Shown: one piece after another, positions 3,214 through 60,296 of the stretch
How positions within the stretch are numbered: the first letter of the stretch is position 1
How the letters are laid out: every line of letters starts with the position of its first letter
Assembly (NCBI GenBank): GCA_021790935.1
Contig: JAJYFL010000002.1
Coordinates: 62,001 to 126,000, forward strand
Reading direction: 5' to 3'
Source: a bacterium
GTDB taxonomy: Bacteria; Vulcanimicrobiota; Vulcanimicrobiia; Vulcanimicrobiales; Vulcanimicrobiaceae
DNA: 64,000 nucleotides
Translations under genes and position numbers: made by a program
Notes under the pieces: model-generated
Database searches by the model: none
The model's input: the letters and a program-made list of their open reading frames with translations, nothing else
What the model was told of the DNA's origin: nothing

Positions 3214-3380
3214 TAGGAGGCTGTCGGGGTTGGGCCGTTTTCGGATTTGGCGCCGAATTTTGTTCGGAGACGAGGCGCGAAGAAGGAGCGAAGCCGTAGC
3301 TTCGTGACTGATGAGCAACGAAGTATGCGGGCAAAAGGCGGCCCAAAGACGGAAACATGCTCAACCCCGACAGCCTCCTA
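3214..3380 (-). repeat. 167-bp inverted-repeat element, copy 1
   Basis: This is the opposite orientation of copies 2 and 3. The ends are 18-nt inverted repeats, here TAGGAGGCTGTCGGGGTT and its complement. Both arms carry the same G/C change relative to the other copies, so self-pairing is kept. It fills the whole gap between queE and mqnB: its outer bases supply the queE TAG stop, and its other end abuts the mqnB ATG. It encodes no transposase. TA at both outer ends fits a TA target duplication, as used by IS630/Tc1-type transposases (inference). Confidence 0.85.
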
Positions 3381-3953
3381 CCGTATGCCGATGAATTTAT
3401 GCGTCTGCAGCGAAAGCCGGAAACGCTGCGGATGCGCCTTGGCGAATTCGACCGCGAGCGCGACGTTGCGTGGTTTGTTGCCTTCGGGCTGAAGCAGAAT
3501 GGTCGGCTTGTCGCTGAAGAGGTCGAGCCACCGCGTTGGGACGCAGCCGTCGACGATCACCTTGACCTCGTTTGCACGCCGCGCCATGGCGGCATCGACG
3601 CGCTCTTTCGGCGAAACGCATAGCCAGACGTCGTCGGGCAGTTCGGTCGCGATCGTCCCGTTGGATTCTACGTGCACGCGGCGGCCGGCGGCGCGCAGCG
3701 CGCCGATCAGCGCGGCGGTCTCTGCCTGCGCGAGCGGTTCGCCGCCCGTGAGCACGACCATGGGGCAATCGCCGCCGATCTCCGCTACGCGCAGTACGAT
3801 CTCGTCGACGCCGGCAAAGAATGCGAGCGCGTAATCGGTATCGCAGAAATCGCAGGCGAGGTTGCAGCCGGCGAGCCGCACGAAGACGGCGGGCGTTCCG
3901 GTGTAGGCGCCTTCACCTTGTATGCTGTAGAAGATCTCCGTTAGTTGCAGCAT
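3378..3953 (-). CDS. queE: 7-carboxy-7-deazaguanine synthase
   Basis: A 191-aa radical-SAM enzyme that contracts 6-carboxytetrahydropterin to 7-carboxy-7-deazaguanine for queuosine/archaeosine-type bases. The cluster motif is the standard C-x3-C-x2-C at C30, C34 and C37, followed by the TGGEPL block. The N-terminus LTEIFYSIQGEG is typical of QueE. The ATG at 3953 lies 8 bp after the queD stop, so the pair is one operon in pathway order (QueD product is QueE substrate). The last codon and stop run into the outer bases of the 167-bp repeat. Confidence 0.93.
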   Translation of the reverse strand: MLQLTEIFYSIQGEGAYTGTPAVFVRLAGCNLACDFCDTDYALAFFAGVDEIVLRVAEIGGDCPMVVLTGGEPLAQAETAALIGALRAAGRRVHVESNGTIATELPDDVWLCVSPKERVDAAMARRANEVKVIVDGCVPTRWLDLFSDKPTILLQPEGNKPRNVALAVEFAKAHPQRFRLSLQTHKFIGIR

Positions 3954-3961
3954 CCGGGACC

Positions 3962-4327
3962 TTAAGGGAGATCGGTCTTCCGCAGCACGGCGCAGGAGGT
4001 TGCCGTCTCCCAAAGCACGAGCTCGTCCAGGGACGGAAGAACCGGGAGAAGACGCTGCCAGATCCACAGCGCGATGCGTTCGCAAGTCGGGTTCTCGATG
4101 ATGTCGTTGAGCGACCGGTGGTCGAGTGCGTCGATCGCCTCGCGGCGTACCAGTTCCTTGATCGTATCGAAATCTTCGATCATTCCGCGCGCCGGTCCGT
4201 CGTCGCGGAGTGGACCGCGGACGCCCACCTCCAGACGATACGAATGCCCGTGCGGGCGGGCACACTTACCCGGATGGAACGGGAGCGCGTGCGCCGCCTC
4301 GAACGTAAAGCGCTTACGGATCTGCAT
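3962..4327 (-). CDS. queD: 6-carboxytetrahydropterin synthase
   Basis: A 121-aa protein of the QueD/PTPS family. It makes 6-carboxy-5,6,7,8-tetrahydropterin from dihydroneopterin triphosphate. Zinc ligands are H13, H26 and H28 (in ARPHGHSY). C22 just before them is the catalytic Cys expected in QueD, and DHRSLND plus PTCERIA hold the other catalytic residues. Start at ATG 4327; longer in-frame starts only add unrelated low-complexity residues. It follows the E2 gene by 22 bp in the same direction and feeds QueE. Confidence 0.92.
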   Translation of the reverse strand: MQIRKRFTFEAAHALPFHPGKCARPHGHSYRLEVGVRGPLRDDGPARGMIEDFDTIKELVRREAIDALDHRSLNDIIENPTCERIALWIWQRLLPVLPSLDELVLWETATSCAVLRKTDLP

Positions 4328-5604: not shown

Positions 5605-6606
5605 TTAGAACCTCGCCATCTCTCGCATCGCCTCGGCCATCTCGCCGGGCGAGCTCATGTACTCTTCCTCGAGCGGGAGCGCGTAGCCCATCGCCGGGAC
5701 GTCGGGCGCGCAGTGACGGCGAATCGGCGCGTCCAGATCGAAGAGCGCTTCCTCGGCGACCATCGCGGAGATCTCCGCGCCGACGCCGCCGAATTTGTTG
5801 TCCTCGTGCACGATCAGCAGTTTGCGCGTCTTGCGGACGCTCTCGAGGATCGTTCCGCGGTCCATCGGACGTATGGAGCGCAGGTCGACCACCTCGACCG
5901 AGATGCCTTCGGTTTCGAGTTGGTTGGCCGCCTCGAGCGCCCAATGCACGTAGAGGCCATAGGAGACGACGGTCAACTGCGTTCCGGCCTTCTTGACGTC
6001 GGCCTTACCGAGCGGAATCGTGTAGTGTCCGCCGGGCACCTCGCCTTTGATCAGACGGTAGGTTTTCTTATGCTCGAGGAAGAGCACGGGATCGGGATCG
6101 TCGATCGCGGCATTGAGCAAGCCCTTGACGTCGGCCGGAAAGGCCGGCGCGACGATCTTCAGGCCCGGAACGTGATAGAACAGCGCTTCGATCGAGACCG
6201 AGTGCGATAGCGCGCCTCGCACGCCGCCGCCGTATGGCGTGCGTATTACGAGCGGACACGTGTATTCGCCGTTGCTCCGATAGCGCGTCTTGGCCGCTTC
6301 GCCGACGATTTGGTTGAACGCGGGGTAGATGAAATCCGCGAACTGGATCTCGGCGATCGGCCGCAGACCCTCCATGGCCATTCCGACTGCGATCCCTACG
6401 ATCGAAGCCTCGGCGATCGGCGTGTCGATCACGCGCTCCGGCCCAAACTCTTTGACGAAGTCCTTGGTAATGAGAAAGACGTTACCGCGGTCGCCGACGT
6501 CCTCGCCGAGAATCACGGTTCGATCGTCGTTCTTCATGGCCTCGTACAACGTCTCGCGGACGGTCTCGACGTTGTTCATCACCTTGGACGACGCGCTTAC
6601 TGCCAT
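5605..6606 (-). CDS. 2-oxoacid dehydrogenase E1 component, beta subunit
   Basis: A 333-aa transketolase-like E1-beta. Family landmarks are the N-terminal TVRETLYEAMKNDDR block, LGEDVGDRGNVF, the GIAVGMAMEGLRPIAEIQF segment and, near the end, RRHCAPDVPAMGYALPLEE. It pairs with E1-alpha to decarboxylate a 2-oxoacid and pass the acyl group to the E2 lipoyl arm. Its ATG overlaps the E1-alpha stop by 10 nt (ATGGCAGTAA) and it ends 4 bp before the E2 ATG, so all three are tightly co-expressed. Confidence 0.9.
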   Translation of the reverse strand: MAVSASSKVMNNVETVRETLYEAMKNDDRTVILGEDVGDRGNVFLITKDFVKEFGPERVIDTPIAEASIVGIAVGMAMEGLRPIAEIQFADFIYPAFNQIVGEAAKTRYRSNGEYTCPLVIRTPYGGGVRGALSHSVSIEALFYHVPGLKIVAPAFPADVKGLLNAAIDDPDPVLFLEHKKTYRLIKGEVPGGHYTIPLGKADVKKAGTQLTVVSYGLYVHWALEAANQLETEGISVEVVDLRSIRPMDRGTILESVRKTRKLLIVHEDNKFGGVGAEISAMVAEEALFDLDAPIRRHCAPDVPAMGYALPLEEEYMSSPGEMAEAMREMARF

Positions 6607-7628
6607 GGTTCCCAGGCTCCTTCGTAGAGGTTGGTGTAGAGTTCCGAGGCGGCCGGAAACGGCATCGCTTCCGCGCGGTCGGTGGCTTCGTTCGTTTCGC
6701 GCAGCACCTCTTTACGCATTGCGTCGATCTCCGGGGGGCCGAGGATGCCCAGTTCCAGCAATACGCGCTCGAAGCGCGGCAGCGGATCGTCCTTGCGGTG
6801 CGCGGTTACTTCATCGCGCGTGCGGTAGGTCATATCGTTGTCGTCGGTTGAGTGCGCGAGGAAGCGGTAGCAGACGCCTTCGAGCAGCGTCGGTCCGCCG
6901 CCGCCGCGCGCGCGGTCGAGTGCGCGTTTCACCGCTCCGTAGCTCGCAATCGGGTCGAAGCCGTCGAACTGCTCGCCGGGGATGCCGTACCCTTCGGCCC
7001 GCTTATAGATGTCCGGTTGCCCCATCTGCCGGCTCAGCGGAGTCGATATCGCCCATAGATTGTTCTCGACCAGCATGACCAGCGGCAACTTGTGGACCGC
7101 CGCGAAGTTCATCGACTCGTGCCATTCGCCTTCGCTGGTCGTGCCGTCGCCGCAGGTGACCAGCACCGCTCGGCCGGACTCCTTGCGGTACTGCATCGCG
7201 AAGGCCGCGCCGACCGCATGCGGGATGTGGGCGGCCAGAATAGACGAGAAGGAGATCAGCCCGGCCTTTTTCGAGGAATAGTGGTTTGGGAACTGACGCC
7301 CGCCGTTGTGGTCGGCGGCGCGCGCGAAGATCGAGAGCATGATCTCGTAGGGCGTCAAGCCGATGCCTAGCGCAAGCCCAAGATCGCGGTAGTAGGGCGC
7401 CAGGAGGTCCTTGCCGCGCTCGAAGGCCATGGCTGCGCCCGATTGCAGCGCCTCGTGGCCTTCGCTCCCGAGCGCGAACGGGACCTTGCCTTGGCGGTTG
7501 AGCTGGAAACCACGGTTGTCGAGCTGCCGCTGAAGGAGCATATTGCGAAAGATCGCCTTCAGCTGGTCGTCGGACAGACCCTGACGCTCCAGTGAGTTAC
7601 GCACTTGAGTGATCTCGGTTTTTGCCAT
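6597..7628 (-). CDS. 2-oxoacid dehydrogenase E1 component, alpha subunit (copy next to E1-beta)
   Basis: A 343-aa thiamine-diphosphate-binding E1-alpha. The cofactor motif is GDGTTSEGEWHESMNFA...VENN. The serine/threonine loop (TYRTRDEVT) that contacts substrate is present. ATG 7628 is preferred over the in-frame TTG 30 nt upstream because an AAGGA site lies about 8 nt before it. A second E1-alpha paralogue precedes it, 55 bp away. The longer match between the two copies (QLNRQGK, GSEGHEA/ASEGHEA, PYYRDLGLALGIGLT) shows they arose by tandem duplication. Confidence 0.9.
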   Translation of the reverse strand: MAKTEITQVRNSLERQGLSDDQLKAIFRNMLLQRQLDNRGFQLNRQGKVPFALGSEGHEALQSGAAMAFERGKDLLAPYYRDLGLALGIGLTPYEIMLSIFARAADHNGGRQFPNHYSSKKAGLISFSSILAAHIPHAVGAAFAMQYRKESGRAVLVTCGDGTTSEGEWHESMNFAAVHKLPLVMLVENNLWAISTPLSRQMGQPDIYKRAEGYGIPGEQFDGFDPIASYGAVKRALDRARGGGGPTLLEGVCYRFLAHSTDDNDMTYRTRDEVTAHRKDDPLPRFERVLLELGILGPPEIDAMRKEVLRETNEATDRAEAMPFPAASELYTNLYEGAWEPWQ

Positions 7629-7683
7629 CGCGTTTGTCCTTAGCGAGCGGTTGTTCAAGCGGGTTGCGGAAAAAGAGAAAGCG

Positions 7684-8700
7684 TCACTGCCACGGTTCCC
7701 ACGGGCCTTCGTAGAGGTTCTCGAACGCGGCGGCCGGCGGCGGATACGGCATGGCCTCGGCTCTGTCCGTAGCTTCGTTCGTTTCGGCCAGCACAGACGA
7801 CTTCAAATCTTCGATATCGGTTAGCGTCAAGACGCCGCGGGCGATCAAGAAGCGCTCGAATTTCGGCACGGGGTCGTCCTTGCGGCGCTCGGCGACCTCT
7901 TCGCGCGTGCGATAGGTGCGGTCGTCGTCGTCGGTCGTATGCGAGAGGAAGCGGTAGCACTTCGCCTCGAGCAGCGTCGGCCCGCCGCCCGATCGAGCCC
8001 GTTCCATCGCTTCGGCGACCGCCGCGTAAGACGCGATCGGGTCGAAACCGTCGACGACGGCGCCGGGAATACCATAGCCGGCTGCCCTCTTGTAGACGTC
8101 CGGCTGGCCCATCTGTTTGGAGAGCGGCGTGCTGATCGCCCACTCGTTGTTCTCGCAGAGAAAGACGACGGGCAGTTCCGCAACCGCGGCAAAGTTGACG
8201 GCTTCGTGCCACTCGCCTTCGCTGGTCGCGCCGTCGCCGAAGGTCGTCAAGACCGCGCGCCCGGCCTCCCGGCGCAACTTGACCGCGTAGGCTGCTCCGA
8301 CCGCGTGGCAGGTCTGCGCGGCGATGAGCGAACTGATGGTCTGCAGGCCGAGAGCCCGCGCCGCATAGTGATGGGGAAACTGCCGCCCGCCCGACCGGTC
8401 CGCGGCTCGCGCGAAGAGCGAGAGCAGGACGTCGTAAGCGGTGAGCCCGATGCCGAGCGCGAGGCCCAGATCGCGATAGTAGGGGACGAGGATGTCGTGG
8501 CCGCGCCGAAAGGCCATGGCGGCCCCCGCCTGCACCGCCTCGTGCCCTTCGCTCGCCGAAGCGAACGGAATCTTTCCTTGGCGGTTGAGCTGGAAGCCGC
8601 GGCTTTCGAGGGTGCGCTGCAGCAGCATCGTCCGCAGCATCGCAGCCAGTTGCCCGTCGCTTAGGCCGTGCCGCTCAAAGGGGGCCAGCTCGGGTCGCAT
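7684..8700 (-). CDS. Second E1-alpha paralogue of the 2-oxoacid dehydrogenase
   Basis: A 338-aa E1-alpha paralogous to the downstream copy and just as complete: GDGATSEGEWHEAVNFA...CENN for thiamine diphosphate and TYRTREEVA in the regulatory loop. The pair differ in substrate-side segments (PHHYAARALGLQTISSLIAAQTCHA here, PNHYSSKKAGLISF in the other copy), which suggests different oxoacid preference or a regulatory pairing. Only one E1-beta gene follows. The start may be ATG 8700 or an in-frame GTG at 8712; neither has a strong ribosome site. It is the first gene of the minus-strand run and diverges from the M20 amidohydrolase. Confidence 0.87.
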   Translation of the reverse strand: MRPELAPFERHGLSDGQLAAMLRTMLLQRTLESRGFQLNRQGKIPFASASEGHEAVQAGAAMAFRRGHDILVPYYRDLGLALGIGLTAYDVLLSLFARAADRSGGRQFPHHYAARALGLQTISSLIAAQTCHAVGAAYAVKLRREAGRAVLTTFGDGATSEGEWHEAVNFAAVAELPVVFLCENNEWAISTPLSKQMGQPDVYKRAAGYGIPGAVVDGFDPIASYAAVAEAMERARSGGGPTLLEAKCYRFLSHTTDDDDRTYRTREEVAERRKDDPVPKFERFLIARGVLTLTDIEDLKSSVLAETNEATDRAEAMPYPPPAAAFENLYEGPWEPWQ

Positions 8701-8790: not shown

Positions 8791-9954
8791 GTGAGCGTTT
8801 TAGCGGGCGTGCCGCACGACGAGTTGGTCCGCGTGCGGCGGTATCTTCACCGCTGCCCGGAACTCTCGATGGCGGAGGTCGAAACGGCGGCGTTCGTCGA
8901 GCGCGAGCTGCGCGCTCTTGATTTCGACGAGATCCGTACTGGAGTCGGCGGGACGGGGATCCTCGCGACGCTTCGCGGGGGGCGCCCGGGTCCGGTGACG
9001 CTCCTGCGCGCGGATATGGATGCGCTCCCGGTCACCGAGCTCAACGACGTGCCGTACGCCTCCACGAAGCCGGGCGTGATGCACGCTTGTGGGCACGACG
9101 CGCACGTCGCGATCTTATCGTGTGCGGCCAAAGATCTCGCTCGCCGCAGGGCCGAGGTCCCCGGGACGCTCGTCTTCTGCTTCCAGCCCGGCGAAGAGGG
9201 AGCGGCGGGTAACAAACTCATGATCGACGACGGTGCGCTCGAGAACCCGCACGTCGACCGGGTCTTCGCGCTGCACGTCTACAGCGGCCTCGACGTGGGG
9301 AAGATCGGGGTGCGTGACGGCGCCTTCTTCGCTTCGTCCGATCGCTTCGTGCTGCGTTTGAAAGGCAGCGGCGGGCACGGTGCGATGCCGGACCTCAGCG
9401 TCGACCCGATCGTCGCCGCCTCGTACCTCGTTACGATGCTGCAGACGCTTGCGAGCCGCGAGGTCGCTCCGCGTGAGCCGGTCGTAGTGACCATCGGAAA
9501 GATCGAGAGCGGAAGCACGTTCAACGTCATCCCCGATGAAGCCGAGATGCTCGGGACGGTGCGAGCGTTCGACGAAGCCGTACGGCGCACGATGCCGGAG
9601 CGCATGGAGCGCATCGTTGCCGGCCTCTGCGCCTCGCTGCGCCTAACCTATGAGTTCGAGTACCTCTGGGGTTACCCGACGACGGTCAACGACGCGGCTG
9701 CCAACGAGGTCGTTCGCGAAGTTGGGCGCGGCGCGCTCGGCGCGGCCAACGTCGTTGACGGGCACGAGATCGTCATGTGGTCCGAGGATATGTCGTACAT
9801 GCAGGAGCTGCGGCCCGGATCGTATCTCCTGGTCGGCGCTCGTGGCCCGCAGCTCGGGACGTATCCGCAGCACAGCGCCCGCTACGATATCGACGAGCGG
9901 GCGCTGGACGTGGGCTACAGCGTAATGCTTGGCCTCGGGCTGCGAGGCGCTTAG
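8791..9954 (+). CDS. M20 family amidohydrolase (N-acyl-amino-acid type)
   Basis: A 387-aa two-metal peptidase/deacylase of the M20D group (hippurate hydrolase / N-acyl amino acid amidohydrolase). Metal and catalytic residues appear in LLRADMDALPV, MHACGHDAHVAIL and FCFQPGEEGAAG. The dimerisation insert has the GSGGHGAMPD segment with a conserved His. The expected late metal-binding His is visible as QHSARYDID. It probably hydrolyses an N-acylated amino acid or amino-acid ester in the cytoplasm; the substrate cannot be read from sequence. GTG start at 8791. Its TAG stop is the first three bases of a repeat-end remnant. Confidence 0.85.
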   Translation: MSVLAGVPHDELVRVRRYLHRCPELSMAEVETAAFVERELRALDFDEIRTGVGGTGILATLRGGRPGPVTLLRADMDALPVTELNDVPYASTKPGVMHACGHDAHVAILSCAAKDLARRRAEVPGTLVFCFQPGEEGAAGNKLMIDDGALENPHVDRVFALHVYSGLDVGKIGVRDGAFFASSDRFVLRLKGSGGHGAMPDLSVDPIVAASYLVTMLQTLASREVAPREPVVVTIGKIESGSTFNVIPDEAEMLGTVRAFDEAVRRTMPERMERIVAGLCASLRLTYEFEYLWGYPTTVNDAAANEVVREVGRGALGAANVVDGHEIVMWSEDMSYMQELRPGSYLLVGARGPQLGTYPQHSARYDIDERALDVGYSVMLGLGLRGA

Positions 9955-9970
9955 GAGGCTGTCGGAGTTA
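9952..9970. repeat. Solo end of the 167-bp repeat
   Basis: TAGGAGGCTGTCGGAGTTA is identical to the terminal repeat of copy 3, but no second arm or internal part follows. It lies exactly between two convergent genes and supplies both stop codons: TAG for the amidohydrolase on the plus strand and TAA (read from TTA) for the small gene on the minus strand. It is a remnant of an insertion or a partial deletion product. Confidence 0.6.
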
Positions 9971-21944: not shown

Positions 21945-22111
21945 TAGGAGCCTGTCGGAGTTAAGCGCGTTTCCGTCTTTGGGCCGCCTTTTGCCCGGAT
22001 ACTTCGTTGCTCATCAGTCACGAAGCTACGGCTTCGCTCCTTCTTCGCGCCTCGTCTCCGAACAAAATTCGGCACCAAATCCGAAAACGGCTCAACTCCG
22101 ACAGGCTCCTA
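21945..22111 (+). repeat. 167-bp inverted-repeat element, copy 2
   Basis: Same length and orientation as copy 3. The ends read TAGGAGCCTGTCGGAGTT and the complement; the G-to-C change at base 7 is mirrored in the other arm, so the ends still pair. It separates the PHP gene from the EF-G-like gene and gives the PHP gene its TAG stop. Inside is a smaller hairpin (CGAAGC / GCTTCG) as in the other copies, and no protein-coding capacity. Confidence 0.85.
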
Positions 22112-23791
22112 GCGGCGCTTGCGTGCGGCTTTCTTAGCAGCCGCGGGCTTCTTGGCATGCGCGGGCTTCTTAGCGGGCGCGGACTTCTTAGCGGGCGCGG
22201 GCTTCTTAGCGGGCGCGGGCTTCTTAGCCGGCGCATGCTTCTTAGCCGACGCAGGCTTTTTGGCCGGCGCAGGCTTTTTGGCCGGCGCGGATTTTTTGGC
22301 GGGCGTGGCCTTTCTAGTGGGCGTGGGCTTCTTAGTGGACGCGAGTTTTTTAGTGGGCGCGAGTTTTTTAGCGGGCGCGGACTTTTTGGCGGGCGCGGAC
22401 TTTTTGGCGGGCGCGGCCTTTCTAGTGGGCGCGAGTTTTTTAGCGGGCGCGGGCTTTTTCGTGGGCGCGGACTTTTTGGCCGGCGCAGGCTTCTTCGTGG
22501 GCGTGGCTCTTTTCGGTGAGGCAACGCGTTCTTGGGGCGCGGCAGCGTGCGGTTCGGCGGCGGTTTTCGGCTTTTTGGCGCGCGTGGTTCTCGGCGCACC
22601 ACCGCGAGCAGAGGGCTCCTTGGCCGGTCCTTTGGTCGCTCGCGACGAACCGCCGGCGCGACGCTTGGGGCCGGCAGCGTGCCGGGCCTTCGCGGCAGCC
22701 TTCGCCTCGCGAAGTTCGGCCGCTTCGTCGCGTTCGGGCAGGCCGAGCTCGGCGCGGCCGAAGCCCGTGATGCTGCTGCCTGCCAACGGAGGCTCCTGTG
22801 ATTTCGCCTTTTCGAGATGTTCCTTGGTCGCCCGCAGGGCCACGCGCGCGAGCCTCCCACCGACCGGGAAGACGATCTCGTTGATGCCGGCCTCGTCGAG
22901 CATTTTGAGGACGAAATCGAACATTCCGCCCTGATCTTTCGGACTGTGTGCGTCCGAGCCGATGGCGATGCCGACGCCTTTTGCTTTGGCTTTCTTCATC
23001 AAGCGCAGATTGGCGGCGCGGTAGCGCTGCCGATCTCCTTCGGCGCCTTCGTACTCCGCATCTCGGTACAGGAAGCGCGTATTGATCTCGATCGCCATCC
23101 CGCGCGCTCGGCACGCGTCGATGAGTTGGTCCTCGTAGCGCTCGAGCGTAGCCTTATCGGGCCAATGGCCAAACGTCGCCGGAACGTAGAAGTGCCCGAC
23201 GATATGGCCCGGGAGTTTTTCGATGTCGTCCAGCAGTTTGGCCATGTAGAGTTGCCACGTCTTCTCGACCCCGACGATTTCGTAGAAACCCTTGAACTCC
23301 GCATTGTCGAACGGCCATTGCCAATCCGCACCCTTCTCCGGGTGGTCGATAGCCAGGAAGTGTACCGAGCGGATCATGCCGTCCGGCCGCATGGCGTCGA
23401 CGATATTCTGCGCGTCCGGTCTCGCGCGCGGATCGTTGTCGATCTCGGCGCCGATCGAGAAGCGCATCCCGCGGCGCAGGCCTTCCGAAACGATCGCCGC
23501 GTGCGTGACGTCGACGCCCGCCGTTTCGGCGGCGCCGTAGAGATCGCCGGCCTCGGCGAGTTTCAGCGCGCGGCGCACCGTGTTGACGGCTCCGGGATCC
23601 TCGAACGTCAAGTAGTTGACGTGGTCGGTCACCATCAAGAAGCGCGGCAGACCGCGCCGGCACGCGTGGTAAAACCACAGAAACAGCATACGCGCGGAGT
23701 ACGCTATGGGGCGCTCCTCCGAGTAGAGTTTGTGTTCGCCCTTGGCGTGCCCGTGGATGTCGGGGATGGCGGCGATGCGTGGGTCGCTCAG
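22109..23791 (-). CDS. PHP-domain phosphoesterase fused to a histone-H1-like Lys/Ala/Pro tail
   Basis: A 560-aa protein in two parts. Residues 1 to about 330 are a PHP metal-dependent phosphoesterase: D11-I-H13-G-H15 near the start, VTDHVNYL, GAEIDNDP and SDAHSPKD provide metal ligands. After a charged helical linker, residues about 433-560 are 20 hexapeptide units of the type KK-x-A-P-A ending ARKRR, like the basic tails of histone H1 and AlgP-type proteins. The tail suggests nucleic-acid or polyanion binding. No ATG/GTG/TTG fits; CTG 23791 is likely, since it overlaps the upstream stop as CTGA after AAAGGAAG. Confidence 0.8.
   Translation of the reverse strand: MSDPRIAAIPDIHGHAKGEHKLYSEERPIAYSARMLFLWFYHACRRGLPRFLMVTDHVNYLTFEDPGAVNTVRRALKLAEAGDLYGAAETAGVDVTHAAIVSEGLRRGMRFSIGAEIDNDPRARPDAQNIVDAMRPDGMIRSVHFLAIDHPEKGADWQWPFDNAEFKGFYEIVGVEKTWQLYMAKLLDDIEKLPGHIVGHFYVPATFGHWPDKATLERYEDQLIDACRARGMAIEINTRFLYRDAEYEGAEGDRQRYRAANLRLMKKAKAKGVGIAIGSDAHSPKDQGGMFDFVLKMLDEAGINEIVFPVGGRLARVALRATKEHLEKAKSQEPPLAGSSITGFGRAELGLPERDEAAELREAKAAAKARHAAGPKRRAGGSSRATKGPAKEPSARGGAPRTTRAKKPKTAAEPHAAAPQERVASPKRATPTKKPAPAKKSAPTKKPAPAKKLAPTRKAAPAKKSAPAKKSAPAKKLAPTKKLASTKKPTPTRKATPAKKSAPAKKPAPAKKPASAKKHAPAKKPAPAKKPAPAKKSAPAKKPAHAKKPAAAKKAARKRR
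22112..22495 (-). repeat. 18-bp coding repeats for the KKxAPA tail
   Basis: About twenty imperfect 18-bp units encode KKPAPA, KKSAPA, KKLAPT, RKAAPA and similar hexapeptides at the C-terminus of the PHP protein. Third-position and x-residue variation shows the units have diverged, but a few adjacent ones (PAPAKK, SAPAKK) remain nearly identical. Such arrays change length easily by slippage, so copy number may vary between strains. Confidence 0.85.
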
Positions 23792-24519
23792 CGTTCTACT
23801 TCCTTTACACCGCGCGGTATCCACATCTCGGAGCTGCGGGCGCGCGTTGAAACGTCGCGCTCGAGCGGGTGATGGTCGACCCACGGTACGATTGTTTCCA
23901 AAAGAATCTCCATCGCTCGTTTCATCGTCTCGAACGACATCGATGCGGTGGACTCCGAGCCTGCGGTGATGGCCTGCGCCGGAAGGTAGGGCAGATGTAC
24001 GAACCCGGCGACGATGGCGGAGGCGGTCGCCTCTACGAGACCGAGCAGCTCGTAGAGCGCTTGGTTGCAGATGAAGGTGCCGGCGGAGTTCGACACGTAG
24101 CCCGGCACGCCGTTCTCATGCCACGCCTCGACGATCTTTTCAAACGGCAGGTTCGATAGACGGGCATCGGGGCCCGCGCGCTGGATCTGCTCCTGCCTGC
24201 GCACGACGCCGACGTTGTCGGGCCGCTCGAAGTCTAGGACGTTGACCGCCACGCGCTCGAGTGCAACGGCGGTCCGGCCGCCGCCTTGCCCCATGCACAG
24301 CACGATGTCGGGCGATTCTTCCAGGAGCGCGCGCTCCAAGCGGTCGCGAAGATTGCGAGTCTCGACCGGTAGAACGCACGATACGACGAGACGCTCTGCA
24401 ATGAGGCGCCCTTCGAGGCTGCGCGCGACGAGTTCGCTCGGGTTCACCTTCTCGCCGCCAAACGGTTCGAACCCTGTGATGAGGACGTGCTTTGCCACCT
24501 TCCTGATGATTAAAAGCAA
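23788..24519 (-). CDS. pcp: Pyroglutamyl peptidase I (C15 cysteine peptidase)
   Basis: A 243-aa peptidase that removes N-terminal pyroglutamate. Catalytic residues lie in SNSAGTFICNQ (nucleophile Cys), the Glu region near LCMGQGGGR, and HLPYLP (His). The N-terminal ITGFEPFGG is diagnostic. The start is uncertain: TTG 24519 has an AAGGGGA about 9 nt upstream, while an in-frame GTG seven codons later begins closer to the usual N-terminus. The C-terminal extension beyond the catalytic domain is short. A terminator hairpin sits just upstream, and the stop overlaps the proposed CTG start of the PHP gene. Confidence 0.88.
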   Translation of the reverse strand: MLLIIRKVAKHVLITGFEPFGGEKVNPSELVARSLEGRLIAERLVVSCVLPVETRNLRDRLERALLEESPDIVLCMGQGGGRTAVALERVAVNVLDFERPDNVGVVRRQEQIQRAGPDARLSNLPFEKIVEAWHENGVPGYVSNSAGTFICNQALYELLGLVEATASAIVAGFVHLPYLPAQAITAGSESTASMSFETMKRAMEILLETIVPWVDHHPLERDVSTRARSSEMWIPRGVKEVER

Positions 24520-48463: not shown

Positions 48464-48630
48464 TAGGAGGCTGTCGGAGTTAAGCACGTTTCCGTCTTTG
48501 GGCCGCCTTTTGCCCGAATACTTCGTTGCTCATCAGTCACGAAGCTACGGCTTCGCTCCTTCTTCGCGCCTCGTCTCCGAACAAAATTCGGCGCCAAATC
48601 CGAAAACGGCTCAACTCCGACAGCCTCCTA
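48464..48630 (+). repeat. 167-bp inverted-repeat element, copy 3
   Basis: Identical in length and orientation to copy 2, with terminal arms TAGGAGGCTGTCGGAGTT and perfect complement. It separates the nitrilase-family gene from the beta-propeller gene. Here the upstream gene reads seven codons into the element (ending GGCRS) before a TGA inside it. In copies 1 and 2 the outer TAG itself is the stop. Internal bases differ from copies 1 and 2 at few positions. Confidence 0.85.
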
Positions 48631-52881: not shown

Positions 52882-52918
52882 GGCACCACAGAATACGTCG
52901 CCGGCGCCCGCGCTCCCC

Positions 52919-52963
52919 TAGGAGACTGTCGGAGTACCAGGTGGTTTTAAGGTTTGGGCCCTA
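52919..52963 (+). repeat. Degenerate end of the 167-bp repeat
   Basis: TAGGAGACTGTCGGAGT matches the terminal arm with one change, and TTTGGGCC further on aligns with the same internal segment of the full copies. The match then fades, so it looks like a decayed left end. It lies upstream of the adaptor protein gene. Confidence 0.4.
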
Positions 52964-53040
52964 GTACTTGAATCAAACCGGCCGGTGCGCCGTAGTAACC
53001 AAGGAACGTTACGCCGTCCTCGATCACATACAGGAGTACC

Positions 53041-54279
53041 ATGCAGCATCACCGCTTGGCGATCGTATTTACGTTCGCCGCCGCCGCCGGGCTGGCCGGA
53101 TGTGCCCACGGGGCATCGCAACGCGGCCCGGCCGCGCTCAACGTGGACGTCGCCGCCGCGCAGCGGCGCAACATCGCCACCTATACTACGCTCGACGGTC
53201 AGATCGCGCCGCTCGAGGAGTCGACGCTCTCGTTTCAGCAGTCCGGGCCGATCGTCGGGATCTATGCGAACGTCGGCGACGCGGTTGCGCGCGGCCAGTT
53301 GCTCGCGAAGGTCGACGACTCTACGTTTCGCGCGGAACTCGCGCAGGACCAAACGCTCGTCGCGCAAGCTGCGGCACGCGCGCGGAGCTCCACGCTGAGC
53401 GTGCCCATCACGCGCTCGCAGACCTCTGCCGCGGTCGAGTCGGCCAAGGCCGCGCTGGCTAGTGCCAAGCTCACCTACGATCAAAACGCGCAGCTCTTCA
53501 AGCAGGGATACGTTTCGCAGTTGCAACTCGAACAGTCGCGTTCGGCCTACGTCGCGGCGCAGAGCCAGTACAGCAGCGCCCTCGCAAACCGCCAGAGCAC
53601 CGGCGTATCGAGCGCCAACGCGGCGGCGGATCGCGCCGCGGTGCAATCGGCGCAGGCGCAAGCCGCTACGCTGCGCACTCAAATCGCGCAGACCGCGCTC
53701 TACGCTCCGTTTACCGGCATCGTCACCGCGCGCTACATGGACCCCGGAGCGATGGCGGGCCCCGCTACTCCGGTACTCCAGGTGTCGAAGATCGACCGAG
53801 TTTGGGTAAACGTGAACGTACCGGATCGAGATCTCTCGTTCGTGCATGCGGGAACGCCGGTAACGTTCGACACCACCTCGCTCGGCCGGCGAACGTTTGC
53901 GGCCCGCATCGCTGCGGTCAACGCCGTACCGACGCAGGGCACGCTCTCCTATCTGGCGCGCATCCTGCAGCCCAATCCCGGTAATCTGCTGCGTGGCGGT
54001 ATGCTGGTTTCGGTCACGATCCAGACGGCGCGACACGATGGTGCCGTCGTGGTTCCGCGTTCGGCCCTGTCCCAGAGCGACGCGGGGACCAGCGTCTTCA
54101 TCGTTCGTGCGGGCAAAGCCGAACAGGTCCCCGTCTCCGTCGGCCTGCAAACCGGCACGCTCTCCGAAGTTCGCAGTCCGAAAATCGTGCCCGGAACCCT
54201 CGTCATCACGACGCGGCCAGACGCGCTGCAAAACGGCAGCACGGTAGCCGTCAACGGAGGTCGCAAAGCGAAACCGTGA
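53041..54279 (+). CDS. RND-type periplasmic adaptor lipoprotein (membrane fusion protein)
   Basis: A 412-aa membrane fusion protein. The lipobox is LAG-C21. A first lipoyl-like half (STLSFQQSGPIVGIY...VGDAVARGQLLAKVDD) is followed by a coiled-coil hairpin rich in Ala/Gln and the beta-barrel segment TALYAPFTGIVTARYMDPGAMAG. It should join an inner-membrane transporter to the TolC protein encoded next, but no RND or ABC pump gene is adjacent. The TolC GTG overlaps its stop. Confidence 0.9.
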   Translation: MQHHRLAIVFTFAAAAGLAGCAHGASQRGPAALNVDVAAAQRRNIATYTTLDGQIAPLEESTLSFQQSGPIVGIYANVGDAVARGQLLAKVDDSTFRAELAQDQTLVAQAAARARSSTLSVPITRSQTSAAVESAKAALASAKLTYDQNAQLFKQGYVSQLQLEQSRSAYVAAQSQYSSALANRQSTGVSSANAAADRAAVQSAQAQAATLRTQIAQTALYAPFTGIVTARYMDPGAMAGPATPVLQVSKIDRVWVNVNVPDRDLSFVHAGTPVTFDTTSLGRRTFAARIAAVNAVPTQGTLSYLARILQPNPGNLLRGGMLVSVTIQTARHDGAVVVPRSALSQSDAGTSVFIVRAGKAEQVPVSVGLQTGTLSEVRSPKIVPGTLVITTRPDALQNGSTVAVNGGRKAKP

Positions 54280-55742
54280 GACCGTATCGATTCTTCGGCG
54301 CGGCGATCGCGGCCGCCGCGCTCGCGGCTCTGAGTGCGCAAGTCGCCTCCGCGCGAACGCTGCCGGCGCCCGTCGCGACGCCGACGCCGATCCCGAGCGC
54401 ATCATCGCCGCTGCCGTATCCTGCATACGGTAGGCCGGCGCCGAGCGTATCGGCGACGAAAGTGCGGCCGGGGATACCGCCGCGCGTCACGCTCGCGCAG
54501 TCGTTGGCGATCGCCGCGGCGTCGTCGCCCGTGCTTGCGGCGGCGCGTGCGAACTACCGGCTCGCCAAAGTGCCCGTCAACCTTGCTAAGTCGGCGATCT
54601 TTCCGAGCGTTACGGGTCAGGCGTCGATAACGCGAACGGGCGGCGCGCTCGTCTTTGGCGGCTCCTCCTTCCGCTCGGGCCAGCGGGCCTTCGTCTCCAA
54701 GGGCATCTCGCTGAACGTCAGGCAACTCATCTACGACGGCGGCAAGGTGATTGCGGAGATCCATTCGGCAAAGGCGACGGAGAGCGGCGCGGCCGACACC
54801 TACGAGCGCGAGCTTCAGACGCTCGCCTACGACGTCGCGCAAGCATACTACAGCGCGCTGCAAGCCGAACGGGCGACGAGCCTAGCCGTGCAGGTCGTGC
54901 ACCAGAACGAAGTGCAGGAGAACTTGGTGCGCGCGCAGATTCGCGCCGGAACGACCGCGCCGGCGGATCTCATGACGGCGGAGCTGCCGACCGCGCAAGC
55001 GCGCGTCGCGCTCGTGAAAGCGCAAGGAGCGGAACTTTCGTCCCTCGCGGCATTTGCCAACGTCCTCGGGCTCGACGCCGATACGCGCATTCGCCCGGTC
55101 GACGATACGCCGGCCGATCGGGCCGCGACTCTGCTGCAAGCGCCGGTCTTGCCGTACCGAACGGCGTTGAAACGAGCGCTCGCGCTGCGGCCGGATTATC
55201 TTGCGGCCGAACGGACCGTCGAGGCCGACCAATATACGCTGCAAGCGCAGCGTCTGGGGCGCTTTCCGGTGCTGACCGCGACCGCGAGCACCGGCGCGAA
55301 CTCGACCAACCCCGTTAACGGCACGCAATTTTTGAACGCGAACTCCATCGGCGCGCAGATCTCCCTTCCGATCTTCGACCAGGGCGTTACTGCAGCGTAC
55401 GTCGCACAAGCGGCCGCGGTACTGGATACGGCGGAGGCGCAGCTCCGTTCGGCCAAACTCGGCATCCAGCTCGGCGTGCGCCAGGCACTCGTCGGTCTGG
55501 TTTCGGCACAGGCGGCGCTCGGCGAGACGCAGGCCGAGCTCAACACGGCGCAGGAGGTGTTGAAGGCGACGCAGGCGCAGTACAGGGCCGGCGTTACGAC
55601 ACTGCCGCTCTTGCTCAACGCGCAAGTGGGTCTGACGCAAGCCGAGACCGACCGGCTCAACGCCGTCTACGCTCTGCGGCAAGCCGAGCAAACCTACGCG
55701 TATGCGCTGGGGGAGTCGGACCTGATGCCCGCAGGGCCGTAG
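54276..55742 (+). CDS. TolC-family outer membrane efflux protein
   Basis: A 488-aa outer membrane factor with signal peptide, Pro-rich stretch and two repeated halves of long helices (KGISLNVRQLIYDGGKVIAEI...; AQISLPIFDQGVTAAYVAQ). The DxGxR/V-type aperture segments are in the usual positions. It forms a trimeric channel across the outer membrane, evidence that the organism is diderm. GTG start overlaps the adaptor stop as GTGA. Confidence 0.9.
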   Translation: MRPYRFFGAAIAAAALAALSAQVASARTLPAPVATPTPIPSASSPLPYPAYGRPAPSVSATKVRPGIPPRVTLAQSLAIAAASSPVLAAARANYRLAKVPVNLAKSAIFPSVTGQASITRTGGALVFGGSSFRSGQRAFVSKGISLNVRQLIYDGGKVIAEIHSAKATESGAADTYERELQTLAYDVAQAYYSALQAERATSLAVQVVHQNEVQENLVRAQIRAGTTAPADLMTAELPTAQARVALVKAQGAELSSLAAFANVLGLDADTRIRPVDDTPADRAATLLQAPVLPYRTALKRALALRPDYLAAERTVEADQYTLQAQRLGRFPVLTATASTGANSTNPVNGTQFLNANSIGAQISLPIFDQGVTAAYVAQAAAVLDTAEAQLRSAKLGIQLGVRQALVGLVSAQAALGETQAELNTAQEVLKATQAQYRAGVTTLPLLLNAQVGLTQAETDRLNAVYALRQAEQTYAYALGESDLMPAGP

Positions 55743-56975: not shown

Positions 56976-58618
56976 AACGACTGGCCGCGCTTGCCCTCAC
57001 GCTCGCCATCGCCGCCGCCGGCTGCAGCCGGTCCGGCACGGGCCCCGCGGGCCCCGCAGGCAAGAACGGGCGGCTGAACGCCTGGACGGTCCCGCACGTC
57101 TTGCGCTACGCGACGGGCGAGGACTTCAGCACGCTCAACCCGCTGCTGAACCAGCAGACCACGCTCAGCCTGATGTCCTCGCTCACGATGGCCTGGTTAA
57201 TCAAGTGGAACGAGCACGACCGGCCCTATCCCGAACTCGCGACGGAGGTCCCCACCAAGGCGGACGGCGGGGTCAGCAAGGACGGCCTGACGATAACCTA
57301 TCACCTGCGTAAGGGCGTCAAGTGGTCGGACGGAGCGCCGTTTACGGCCGACGACGTCGTGTGGACGATTCACGCGATAATGAATCCTGCCAACAATGTC
57401 ACGAGCCGGACCGGCTGGGATTTGATCCGCAAGGTCGACGAACCCAACAAGTATACGGTCGTGCTGCACATGAGCAAACCGTACTCGCCGTTCGTGGAGA
57501 ACTTCTTCTCGACGGCCGGCGGCAATCCGTGCATTCTGCCCAAGCACCTGCTGGCGAAGTACCCGAACATCAACCACGTGCCGTACAACTCGTTGCCGGT
57601 CGGCATCGGGCCGTTCAAATACAAGGAATGGGACCGGGGTTCGAGGGTCGTCATGGTTCGCAATCCGCTCTATTGGCGCGGCTTGCCGAAGCTCAAGGAG
57701 ATCGACTTCGAGATCATCCCCGATACCAACACGGTCATCACCCAGCTCGAAGCCAAAGAACTCGACATGTTCTACAACGCGCCGCCGGCGCAGATCGGCC
57801 AGCTGCGTTCGCTGCTTCCGTTCACGACGTACGTGATGCCGGACTACTACTACCGCCACCTCGACTTCAATCTCTCCAGCCCGAAATTGAAGGACCGGGC
57901 GGTGCGCGAAGCTCTGCGCTACGCCACCGACCGCCCGGCGATCATCGCGAAAATCTACAAGGGCATCGGTTCGTTGCAGGAGCAGCCCTCACCGAAGTCG
58001 GCGCCATATTACGACCCGAGCATCAAACTGGTGCCGTTCGACATCGCCAAAGCCAACCAGATTCTCGACCGCGCGGGCTGGAAGCGCGGGCCGGACGGCG
58101 TGCGCGAGAAGAACGGCGTGCGCCTCTCGCTGAACGTAGCGCTGGACTCGGCCGATCCGCAAGCCGCCTCCATGATGGAATTGATACGCGCCTGGTGGAA
58201 GCAGATCGGCGTGCGCTTCGACATCCGCCAGTATCCGTCTTCGCTGTTGTTTGCCGATTACGCCGATCACGGCATCATCTACCGCGGCAAGTTCGACGTC
58301 TCGTACTTCCAGTGGAGCGACGATCCGCTTGGGGACTTCTCGCCGATCTACGCATGCGACGGCATTCCGCCCAACGGTCAGAACGACGTTCGCTGGTGCA
58401 ACCGGAAGGCGGACGCGGCGATGCGCGCGCTCTACACGCACTTCACGCAGCGGCAACGCAACGCCGACGACCGCATCGTGATGCGCGAACTCTATAAGGA
58501 CGTACCGACGATCGTCGTCATGGGCACCGATACCGTCTGGGTCTGGAACAAGGATCTCAAGCACTTCCACCCCAACGCCATCTCACCGTTCGACAACATG
58601 ATGAACGTCGACATCTGA
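56972..58618 (+). CDS. Peptide/nickel-type solute-binding lipoprotein A
   Basis: A 548-aa SBP_bac_5 lipoprotein (lipobox AAAG-C18). Blocks HLRKGVKWSDGAPFTADDV, EALRYATDRPAIIAKIY and KANQILDRAGW are typical. It is coupled to the siroheme decarboxylase-like gene by ATGA, so the two are made together. No permease or ATPase genes are present. It shares most of its length with the next gene. Confidence 0.87.
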   Translation: MKRLAALALTLAIAAAGCSRSGTGPAGPAGKNGRLNAWTVPHVLRYATGEDFSTLNPLLNQQTTLSLMSSLTMAWLIKWNEHDRPYPELATEVPTKADGGVSKDGLTITYHLRKGVKWSDGAPFTADDVVWTIHAIMNPANNVTSRTGWDLIRKVDEPNKYTVVLHMSKPYSPFVENFFSTAGGNPCILPKHLLAKYPNINHVPYNSLPVGIGPFKYKEWDRGSRVVMVRNPLYWRGLPKLKEIDFEIIPDTNTVITQLEAKELDMFYNAPPAQIGQLRSLLPFTTYVMPDYYYRHLDFNLSSPKLKDRAVREALRYATDRPAIIAKIYKGIGSLQEQPSPKSAPYYDPSIKLVPFDIAKANQILDRAGWKRGPDGVREKNGVRLSLNVALDSADPQAASMMELIRAWWKQIGVRFDIRQYPSSLLFADYADHGIIYRGKFDVSYFQWSDDPLGDFSPIYACDGIPPNGQNDVRWCNRKADAAMRALYTHFTQRQRNADDRIVMRELYKDVPTIVVMGTDTVWVWNKDLKHFHPNAISPFDNMMNVDI

Positions 58619-58643
58619 TGAACGTCGACATCTAGGAGGCAGC

Positions 58644-60296
58644 ATGAAGCAATTCTTTCGACCCGTCGCGCTCGTTGCGGCGTGCGTCGCTCTCGCAGCC
58701 TGCACGCACGCGGCGGGGGGGCCGGGCGGCCCGGCTTCCGCCGGCCACCGGGTCAACTCCTGGACGGTTCCGCACGTCTTACGGTACGCGACGGGCGAGG
58801 ACGTCAACACGCTCAATCCGCTGCTCGGGCAGCAAGAGTCGCTGGGATTCATGTCCTCGCTCACGATGGCTTGGCTCATCAAGTGGGACCGGCATAACCG
58901 CCCCTACCCCGAACTCGCGACGGAGGTGCCGAGCAAGGCCAACGGTGGCGTCAGCAAAGACGGCTTGACGATAACCTACCATCTGCGCAAGGGCGTCAAG
59001 TGGTCGGACGGCGCGCCCTTTACCGCCGACGACGTGGTGTGGACGATCCATGCGATCCTAAACCCAGCCAACGACGTCATCAGTCGCGAGGGCTGGGATC
59101 GCATCAAGAAGATCGGCGAACCGAACAAATACACCGTCGTGCTCCATTTGAGCAAGCCCTACTCGCCGTTTATCGAGACGTTCTTTTCGTCGGCCGGCGC
59201 GAACCCGTGCATCCTGCCCAAACACCTCCTGGCAAAGTACCCGAACATCAACCACGTCGCGTACAACTCGCTGCCCGTCGGCATCGGCCCCTTCAAGTAC
59301 GAAGCGTGGGATCGCGGCCAGAAGGTCGTGATGGTGCGCAATCCGTACTATTGGCGCGGCGAGCCGAAACTCAAAGAGATCGACTTTGAGATCGTCCCCG
59401 ATCGCACCACCGTGCTCACCGAGCTCGAAGCCAAAGAGTTGGATATGTGGGCCCTCGTGTCGGGCAACTACTTCCAGCGCGCGAAGGCGCTGGCACCATT
59501 CACCTACGTGCGGCAGCCGGGCTACAGTTTCGATCACCTCGACTTCAATTTGACCCGCCCGCGCGTCAAAGATCTCGCCGTGCGCGAGGCCTTGCAATAT
59601 GCCACCAACCGCGCGGAGCTCATCAAGAAGGTCGGTCACGGCGTCGGCATCCTTCGGGAAGAGCCCGCCCCAAGCATCGCGCCCTATTACGACCCGGCGA
59701 TCAAGATGGTCCCCTACGACATCGCCAAGGCGAACCGGATCCTGGACGCGGCGGGCTGGAAGCGCGGGCGCGACGGCATCCGTGCCAAGAACGGCGTTCG
59801 CTTGGTGCTGGATTTCGCCACGAGTTCCGGCACGCCCGACGTTGACGAAGAGATCGAGCTGATTCGGCAGTCCTGGAAGAAGATCGGCGTCGGCATAAAC
59901 GTGCGCCATTACCCGGCGAGCCTGCTCTTCGCGCCGTATGCGGAGGGCGGAATCGTCTACAAAGGTAACTGGGACGTCGTCGGTTTCCAGTGGTTCATCG
60001 ATCCGATCGGTGATTTCTCGTCCGAATACGCCTGCAATCAGATCCCACCCAACGGCCAGAACGACCTGCACTGGTGCAACGCCAAGGCCGACGCGGCGAT
60101 GCGCGCCCTCTACACCCACTACGACCAGGCCAAACGCAATAAGGACGATGCGATCGTGATGGAGCAGCTCGACCACGACGTGCCGACGATCGTCACGTCG
60201 GGCACCGAAAACATCTACGTCTTCAACCGCGATCTGCGAAACTTCCACCCGAACCAAGTCACCCCGTTCGACAACATGATGGACGTGGATATCTGA
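58644..60296 (+). CDS. Peptide/nickel-type solute-binding lipoprotein B
   Basis: A 550-aa tandem paralogue of the preceding gene (lipobox ALAA-C20; DNA identity high across WTVPHVLRYATGED and YHLRKGVKWSDGAPFTADDV). It diverges most in the ligand-facing middle (ALVSGNYFQRAKAL here; FYNAPPAQIGQL in copy A), as expected if the two bind different ligands. AGGAGG precedes the ATG. Its 3' end overlaps the convergent glycosyltransferase gene by 82 bp. Confidence 0.88.
   Translation: MKQFFRPVALVAACVALAACTHAAGGPGGPASAGHRVNSWTVPHVLRYATGEDVNTLNPLLGQQESLGFMSSLTMAWLIKWDRHNRPYPELATEVPSKANGGVSKDGLTITYHLRKGVKWSDGAPFTADDVVWTIHAILNPANDVISREGWDRIKKIGEPNKYTVVLHLSKPYSPFIETFFSSAGANPCILPKHLLAKYPNINHVAYNSLPVGIGPFKYEAWDRGQKVVMVRNPYYWRGEPKLKEIDFEIVPDRTTVLTELEAKELDMWALVSGNYFQRAKALAPFTYVRQPGYSFDHLDFNLTRPRVKDLAVREALQYATNRAELIKKVGHGVGILREEPAPSIAPYYDPAIKMVPYDIAKANRILDAAGWKRGRDGIRAKNGVRLVLDFATSSGTPDVDEEIELIRQSWKKIGVGINVRHYPASLLFAPYAEGGIVYKGNWDVVGFQWFIDPIGDFSSEYACNQIPPNGQNDLHWCNAKADAAMRALYTHYDQAKRNKDDAIVMEQLDHDVPTIVTSGTENIYVFNRDLRNFHPNQVTPFDNMMDVDI

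Follow-up and report, generated by a model that had tools for sequence, protein, structure and literature searches.

The 167-bp repeat that occurs three times in the 64,000-nt stretch of DNA analysed here (the window) is a MITE family, real and abundant. We are highly confident that this family belongs to the IS1182 group, is moved in trans, inserts at TA within CTAG, shrinks by deletion and keeps the two arms of each copy identical, a picture that builds on the observed mobility, copy number, IS1182-matching ends, position at stop codons and coupling of the arms. In the mechanism that we propose, the 18-bp ends TAGGAG..TGTC would be recognised by a DDE transposase of the IS1182 family that acts in trans, either now decayed in the host or introduced at intervals; insertion would take place at TA, with a strong preference for CTAG and with duplication of the TA. 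In this GC-rich genome, CTAG often coincides with a TAG stop, which would place the insertion at a gene 3′ end with the stop retained. Copies would later shrink through deletion, and their close-set arms would be kept mutually identical, most likely via replication template switching or gene conversion between the arms.

Three copies in the window

The three copies have exactly equal length and a mutual identity of 94-97%. Their positions, with those of two solo ends, are as follows:

3214-3380, minus strand: MITE copy 1, 167 bp
3214-3231, minus strand: 18-bp terminal inverted repeat of copy 1, TAGGAGGCTGTCGGGGTT
3363-3380, minus strand: opposite 18-bp terminal inverted repeat of copy 1, with a CTA edge that serves as stop codon for ORF 3378-4265 (minus)
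3271-3323, minus strand: conserved core of copy 1, hairpin CGAAGC-TACG-GCTTCG
21945-22111, plus strand: MITE copy 2, 167 bp
22002-22054, plus strand: conserved core of copy 2
48464-48630, plus strand: MITE copy 3, 167 bp
48464-48481, plus strand: left 18-bp terminal inverted repeat of copy 3, TAGGAGGCTGTCGGAGTT, an IS1182-type end
48613-48630, plus strand: right 18-bp terminal inverted repeat of copy 3, the inverse complement of the left end
48521-48573, plus strand: conserved core of copy 3
9952-9969, plus strand: solo 18-bp end, TAGGAGGCTGTCGGAGTT; its TAG is the stop codon of ORF 8791-9954
52919-52936, plus strand: solo end (2 mismatches) where ORF 52918-54426 (minus) has its CTAG stop

The 18-bp terminal inverted repeats of the window copies are perfect or near-perfect and read TAGGAG[G/C]CTGTCGG[A/G]GTT; in copy 1, an A-to-G variant occurs in both 18-bp arms. 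Beyond them, an imperfect inverted repeat (74–76% complementary) extends the arms to 58-59 bp around a 51-bp middle. Both outer edges of each copy are TA, in a context that is mostly CTAG, and no gene-like ORF was found inside any of the three. Each of the three has a predicted minus-strand gene on either side, its neighbours being co-directional: PNP_UDP_1 and radical SAM for copy 1, an EF-G-like gene and a weak PHP-domain match for copy 2, and a weak beta-propeller-like match and a carbon-nitrogen hydrolase for copy 3. An earlier note on this DNA had described three copies of exactly 167 bp, with long terminal inverted repeats and no coding capacity, between co-directional genes in either orientation, and had expected many more genome-wide; the sequences bear this out, with copy 1 on the minus and copies 2 and 3 on the plus strand, and so does the copy number given below. 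The solo ends at 9952 and 52919 are probably element remnants.

The window also holds other repeats. An 18-bp tandem repeat array (19 registers, 22066-22579) directly adjoins copy 2 and overlaps ORFs where the gene 22109-23884 has its 3′ end. Tandem duplication of genes is likely at two places, 6600-8700 and 57070-59810, which show direct repeats with spacings of 1087 and 1678 bp and identities of 70–83%.

Family size and distribution

In the host genome (G000; 2.65 Mb in 33 contigs, 98.8% complete), BLAST finds about 40 more or less full copies, with E values down to 5e-83, and the 18-bp end pattern, allowing up to 3 mismatches, gives 93 matches versus 1 for the reversed control pattern, together placing the repeat family far beyond chance. 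By type, these copies comprise about 23 of family A (167 bp), about 10 of a subfamily B (166 bp) with ends TAGGAGTTTGTCTGACTT, and 6 of 220-221 bp; deletion derivatives of 72-129 bp and, from the end-pattern search, about 15 solo ends are also present. Among 80 elements from G000, G001, G002 and G028, the shortest measures 72 bp and the longest 222 bp, and lengths cluster at 166-167 and 220-221 bp.

Beyond the host, 14 of 60 relatives' genomes match the repeat family, as do 30 of the 149 species searched in the phylum, in a patchy pattern that lies entirely within one family; copies in G028, which belongs to a different genus, are 98% identical to those of the window. Searches of phages and of plasmids (the latter with the core only) gave no match, nor did an exact-pattern search of viral contigs.

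The family has the properties of a MITE. Its members are short, lack a transposase gene, carry terminal inverted repeats and occur in multiple copies; they show insertion polymorphism with target duplication, visible as empty sites in G001 and G002; and their ends are those of autonomous IS1182 elements in other genomes, the sole counterpart within the host being a decayed copy in which one end is still recognisable.

Insertion at TA within CTAG

The element is mobile, as empty sites in relatives show. These were read against the same-genus genomes G001 and G002, which are about 95% identical to the host over aligned stretches. The site of copy 1 is empty in G002, at CGCGCTAG, and holds, in G001, a 185-bp element belonging to the insert-bearing type described below; the sites of copies 2 and 3 are empty in both relatives, reading CTAG and CCAG, respectively. 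Over about 15 readable empty sites, the junction is TA in 11 and CA (two), GA or TG in the other four, slightly more exceptions than about 5% divergence predicts, and some junctions have nearby indels. The check on empty sites that the earlier note had proposed thus returned a TA duplication and the expected length, with no contrary outcome.

At CTAG targets, a 4-bp CTAG duplication looks identical to a TA duplication, and two observations lead us to favour TA, with C and G as its preferred context, a duplication of all 4 bp being less likely. First, at 160 ends, the base outside the TA is C 136 times (T 16, G 4 and A 4 times) and the base inside is G 159 times; were CTAG the duplicated unit, outer C and inner G would vary alike. 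Second, one locus (L109_2358) has a CTAT target in filled and empty alleles alike, which fits TA duplication and not a 4-bp one.

Ends shared with IS1182 elements

The MITE ends, TAGGAG[G/C]CTGTCGGAGTT, are the ends of an IS1182 subgroup. The closest match comes from 15 IS1182 copies of Endozoicomonas ascidiicola (L136-L149, L164), nearly all of which have ends CTAGGAG[C/G]CTGTCGGACTT; the left end reads CTAGGAGCCTGTCGGACTT and the right end CTAGGAG[G/T]CTGTCGGACTT, all are flanked by CTAG, and at best 17 of 18 letters are identical to a MITE end. Their 487-aa transposase scores 352 bits against NF033551 (cut-off 270) and has the Pfam domains DUF772, DDE_Tnp_1 and DDE_Tnp_1_6. More widely, the motif TAGGAGNNYGT, whose background is 0.01 per kb per strand, lies within 450 bp of the gene in 22 of 41 other IS1182-type loci and at both ends in 9; the same ends flank IS1182-family transposases in several phyla. 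We therefore infer the identity of the acting transposase from the ends: the window repeat is best read as an IS1182-group MITE, and an IS1182-type enzyme is almost certainly its mover.

The earlier note had proposed, from the TA at both outer ends, an IS630/Tc1-type transposase acting in trans. Its reading of a non-autonomous element that targets TA holds, and IS630 elements favour CTAG, in keeping with the TA duplication and CTAG preference seen here; the host also contains one IS630/DDE_3 fragment (contig C24), and G001 has intact copies. The end motif, however, is found in 0 of 21 IS630-type loci, and near-identical ends flank IS1182 genes. IS630/DDE_3 genes are rare (6 of 60 genomes) and absent from most MITE-bearing relatives (G002, G028, G008, G013, G020, G033), and searches for an autonomous partner through IS630/DDE_3 and generic DDE_Tnp_1 genes yielded no matching ends. 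Mobilisation by an IS630/Tc1/mariner-type transposase is scarcely credible on this evidence. Contig C24 (L092-L094) is IS-rich, measures 49 kb and accounts for the majority of transposase fragments in the host, broken DDE_Tnp_1 genes among them.

For the IS1182-type enzyme, the full transposon with the same ends that the earlier note suggested seeking exists in other genomes, as the IS1182 elements above, but a search for this family in the host and 11 relatives returned no IS1182 element that is both intact and bounded by exactly these ends. Its nearest autonomous partners come from other phyla and resemble the MITE in their ends alone. The host's only sizeable IS1182-type gene (C20:173769-175112) is broken by one TGA and one TAG; about 120 bp downstream of this pseudogene lies CTAGGAGTTTGTCGACTTTGAGCGC, which closely resembles the subfamily-B MITE end TAGGAGTTTGTCTGACTTGAGCGC. 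Relatives of this gene in other genomes provided the comparison of ends given above.

A search of 8 relatives for end pairs 1-2.5 kb apart gave one 2.5-kb pair, at G001:C60:10902-13375 (L279), whose family-type ends are oppositely oriented and come from different subfamilies; it could be a composite or due to chance.

Stop codons as landing sites

Insertions fall mostly on TAG stop codons and leave genes unbroken. By our home-made ORF filter, on which these gene-end counts rest, the stop codon lies inside the element for 21 of the 32 predicted gene 3′ ends that adjoin a copy, and 17 of those 21 stops fall on the element's own first TAG; no predicted ORF was found to span a copy. Outside the MITEs, 185 of 1,227 CTAGs in 2.0 Mb of host sequence overlap predicted stop codons. 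An element that prefers CTAG and inserts on a TAG stop does no damage to the gene, and this accounts for the location of copies between genes, a placement in which target preference and survival after insertion are inseparable in these data.

The two ends of a copy vary together

The two 18-bp ends of one copy differ from each other at 0.78 positions on average, compared with 2.46 after shuffling of the right ends across copies, and the coupling persists within family A alone (0.75 versus 1.44). Symmetric departures from the consensus number 26, against 3.3 expected and a maximum of 11 in 5000 shuffles; shared ancestry of copies inflates such counts, and several of the symmetric variants look independent because they differ in position and letter. 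In two elements (L018 and L037), the left arm holds right-arm sequence. Template switching between arms (PMC8794818, PMC8604942) is a ready explanation of the coupled ends.

Alternatively, symmetric ends might reflect selection on the transposase substrate, in which the ends would have to pair, much as for IS1272, an IS1182-family element for which stem-loop-dependent transposition has been proposed and which is reported to target and replace stem-loops (PMC5678879). Consistent with this, the 26 symmetric variants lie in the outer 18 bp, and the inner arms of the 167-bp copies have 1 symmetric versus 18 one-sided variants. The IS1182 elements of Endozoicomonas, however, are asymmetric in most of the 15 copies (left GAGCC, right GAGGC), unequal ends also occur at other IS1182-type loci, and simple TA-centred insertion fits most empty sites. 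That autonomous IS1182 elements can have unequal ends speaks against symmetry being strictly required, and we regard substrate selection, rather than template switching, as a doubtful though arguable source of the coupling.

A core shared by elements with unrelated ends

The middle of the element, roughly 50 nt (CTTCGTTGCTCATCAGTCACGAAGCTACGGCTTCGCTCCTTCTTCGCGCCTCG), recurs in elements of near-equal length whose ends are unrelated. The host has a second MITE set of about 167 bp, with ends TAGCAGGTTGCGG, two arm types and at least 8 copies, that contains the core of the window element and is also inserted at TA, mostly in CTAG context:

L219:25-191, L243:7680-7844, L314:17127-17293 and L322:15901-16067: TAGCAGGTTGCGG-ended copies in the host
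L325:5969-6135, L336:9097-9263, L338:16859-17025 and L236:15790-15958: further TAGCAGGTTGCGG-ended copies in the host

In relatives, the core is found in elements with still other ends (L073, L076, L085), and at one site a 221-bp element in G000 stands where G001 has a TAGCAGG-type element (L035 versus L110). As a partner for the TAGCAGG type, an TAGCAGGCTGCGG end beside an IS630 gene (L118) was considered and dropped, since the IS630 element ends just there.

The 220-222-bp form is the 167-bp form with 54 nt added at one place in the core, as at the following loci:

L201:10854, L214:11825, L096:7031, L096:8269 and L270:2257: 54-nt domain

The insert has three sequence types (one in G000 and G001, one in a single G001 copy, one in G002), which differ in their stems and have the same two-hairpin layout, with loops that contain GGA. 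It is present or absent at two orthologous sites (L037 versus G001:C147, and window copy 1 versus G001:C70), and a 126-bp G000 copy is orthologous to a 221-bp G002 copy. A CsrA-sponge reading of the GGA loops was set aside, no convincing CsrA having been found in 2.05 Mb of host sequence.

Across 15 core variants, which were hand-picked, the 6-bp hairpin of the core covaries: 13 cells are changed on both sides versus 6.7 in shuffles, and the covariation of 0.305 versus 0.133 shuffled was reached by 0 of 500 shuffles. Template switching can also yield such covariation, which is therefore not proof of an RNA function. Hammerhead-like letters in the core, CTGATGAG, are unconserved in other families. 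In 21 host copies, the core has 0 shared variants and 6 singletons, and the arms have many shared variants; core singletons are not clearly depleted, so conservation may sit in master copies and not in each copy.

These features could also be read as signs that the repeat is kept mainly for a host role, for example as a transcription terminator or a structured RNA or DNA site, and that its mobility comes second. The hairpin is very stable (RNA z -9.0, DNA z -8.3), and placement at gene 3′ ends, the absence of shared core variants among the 21 copies and the covarying core hairpin would all suit such a role. Set against it are the variable orientation to neighbouring genes in the window (copy 1 versus copies 2 and 3), a presence that differs among strains and is patchy among genera, and an Rfam search with the element that gave no match; we judge a primary host role very unlikely. 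We tentatively suggest that the MITEs may be modular: a fixed-length cassette of about 167 nt, with core hairpin RAMGC-TACG-GCKTY and an optional 54-nt domain, might be what persists, rather than the unrelated outer ends, possibly through a role of the core for the cell or for transposition.

Relation to known elements

IS1182-family insertion sequences (NF033551; Endozoicomonas, IS1272, ISPse1, ISPsy36) resemble the MITE in their ends TAGGAG[C/G]CTGTCGGACTT, CTAG flanks and the DDE transposase family that such ends accompany. They differ in being about 1.6 kb long, with a transposase gene and left and right ends that are often unequal, and in target site: ISPse1 reportedly makes a 4-bp duplication (PMC3281130) and ISPsy36 one of GGCC (PMC8027508), and IS1272 is reported to replace a stem-loop with no duplication (PMC5678879). 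Insertion at TA within CTAG would add a further target mode to the IS1182 group. No dedicated MITE study for this transposase group turned up in the literature searched.

Bacterial MITEs such as MITEAba12 (PMC6382973) are likewise short, geneless and multi-copy, with target duplication and terminal inverted repeats that match an IS; the present family differs in its coupled end variants and in a core common to same-length elements with unrelated ends. REP and REPIN palindromes (PMC3116915, PMC3733652) are also short extragenic palindromes with many intergenic copies, whereas the element here is 167 bp long, duplicates TA and has DDE-type ends.

The analysis assigns to IS1182 a large and patchy repeat family, found in 30 of 149 species and confined to one family of the phylum. 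The 80 paired ends form a natural data set on whether arm symmetry arises by template switching or by selection, and the occurrence of one core in elements whose ends are unrelated poses a specific puzzle that can be tested. For the element itself, CTAG targeting is a way for a MITE to multiply at stop codons with little harm.
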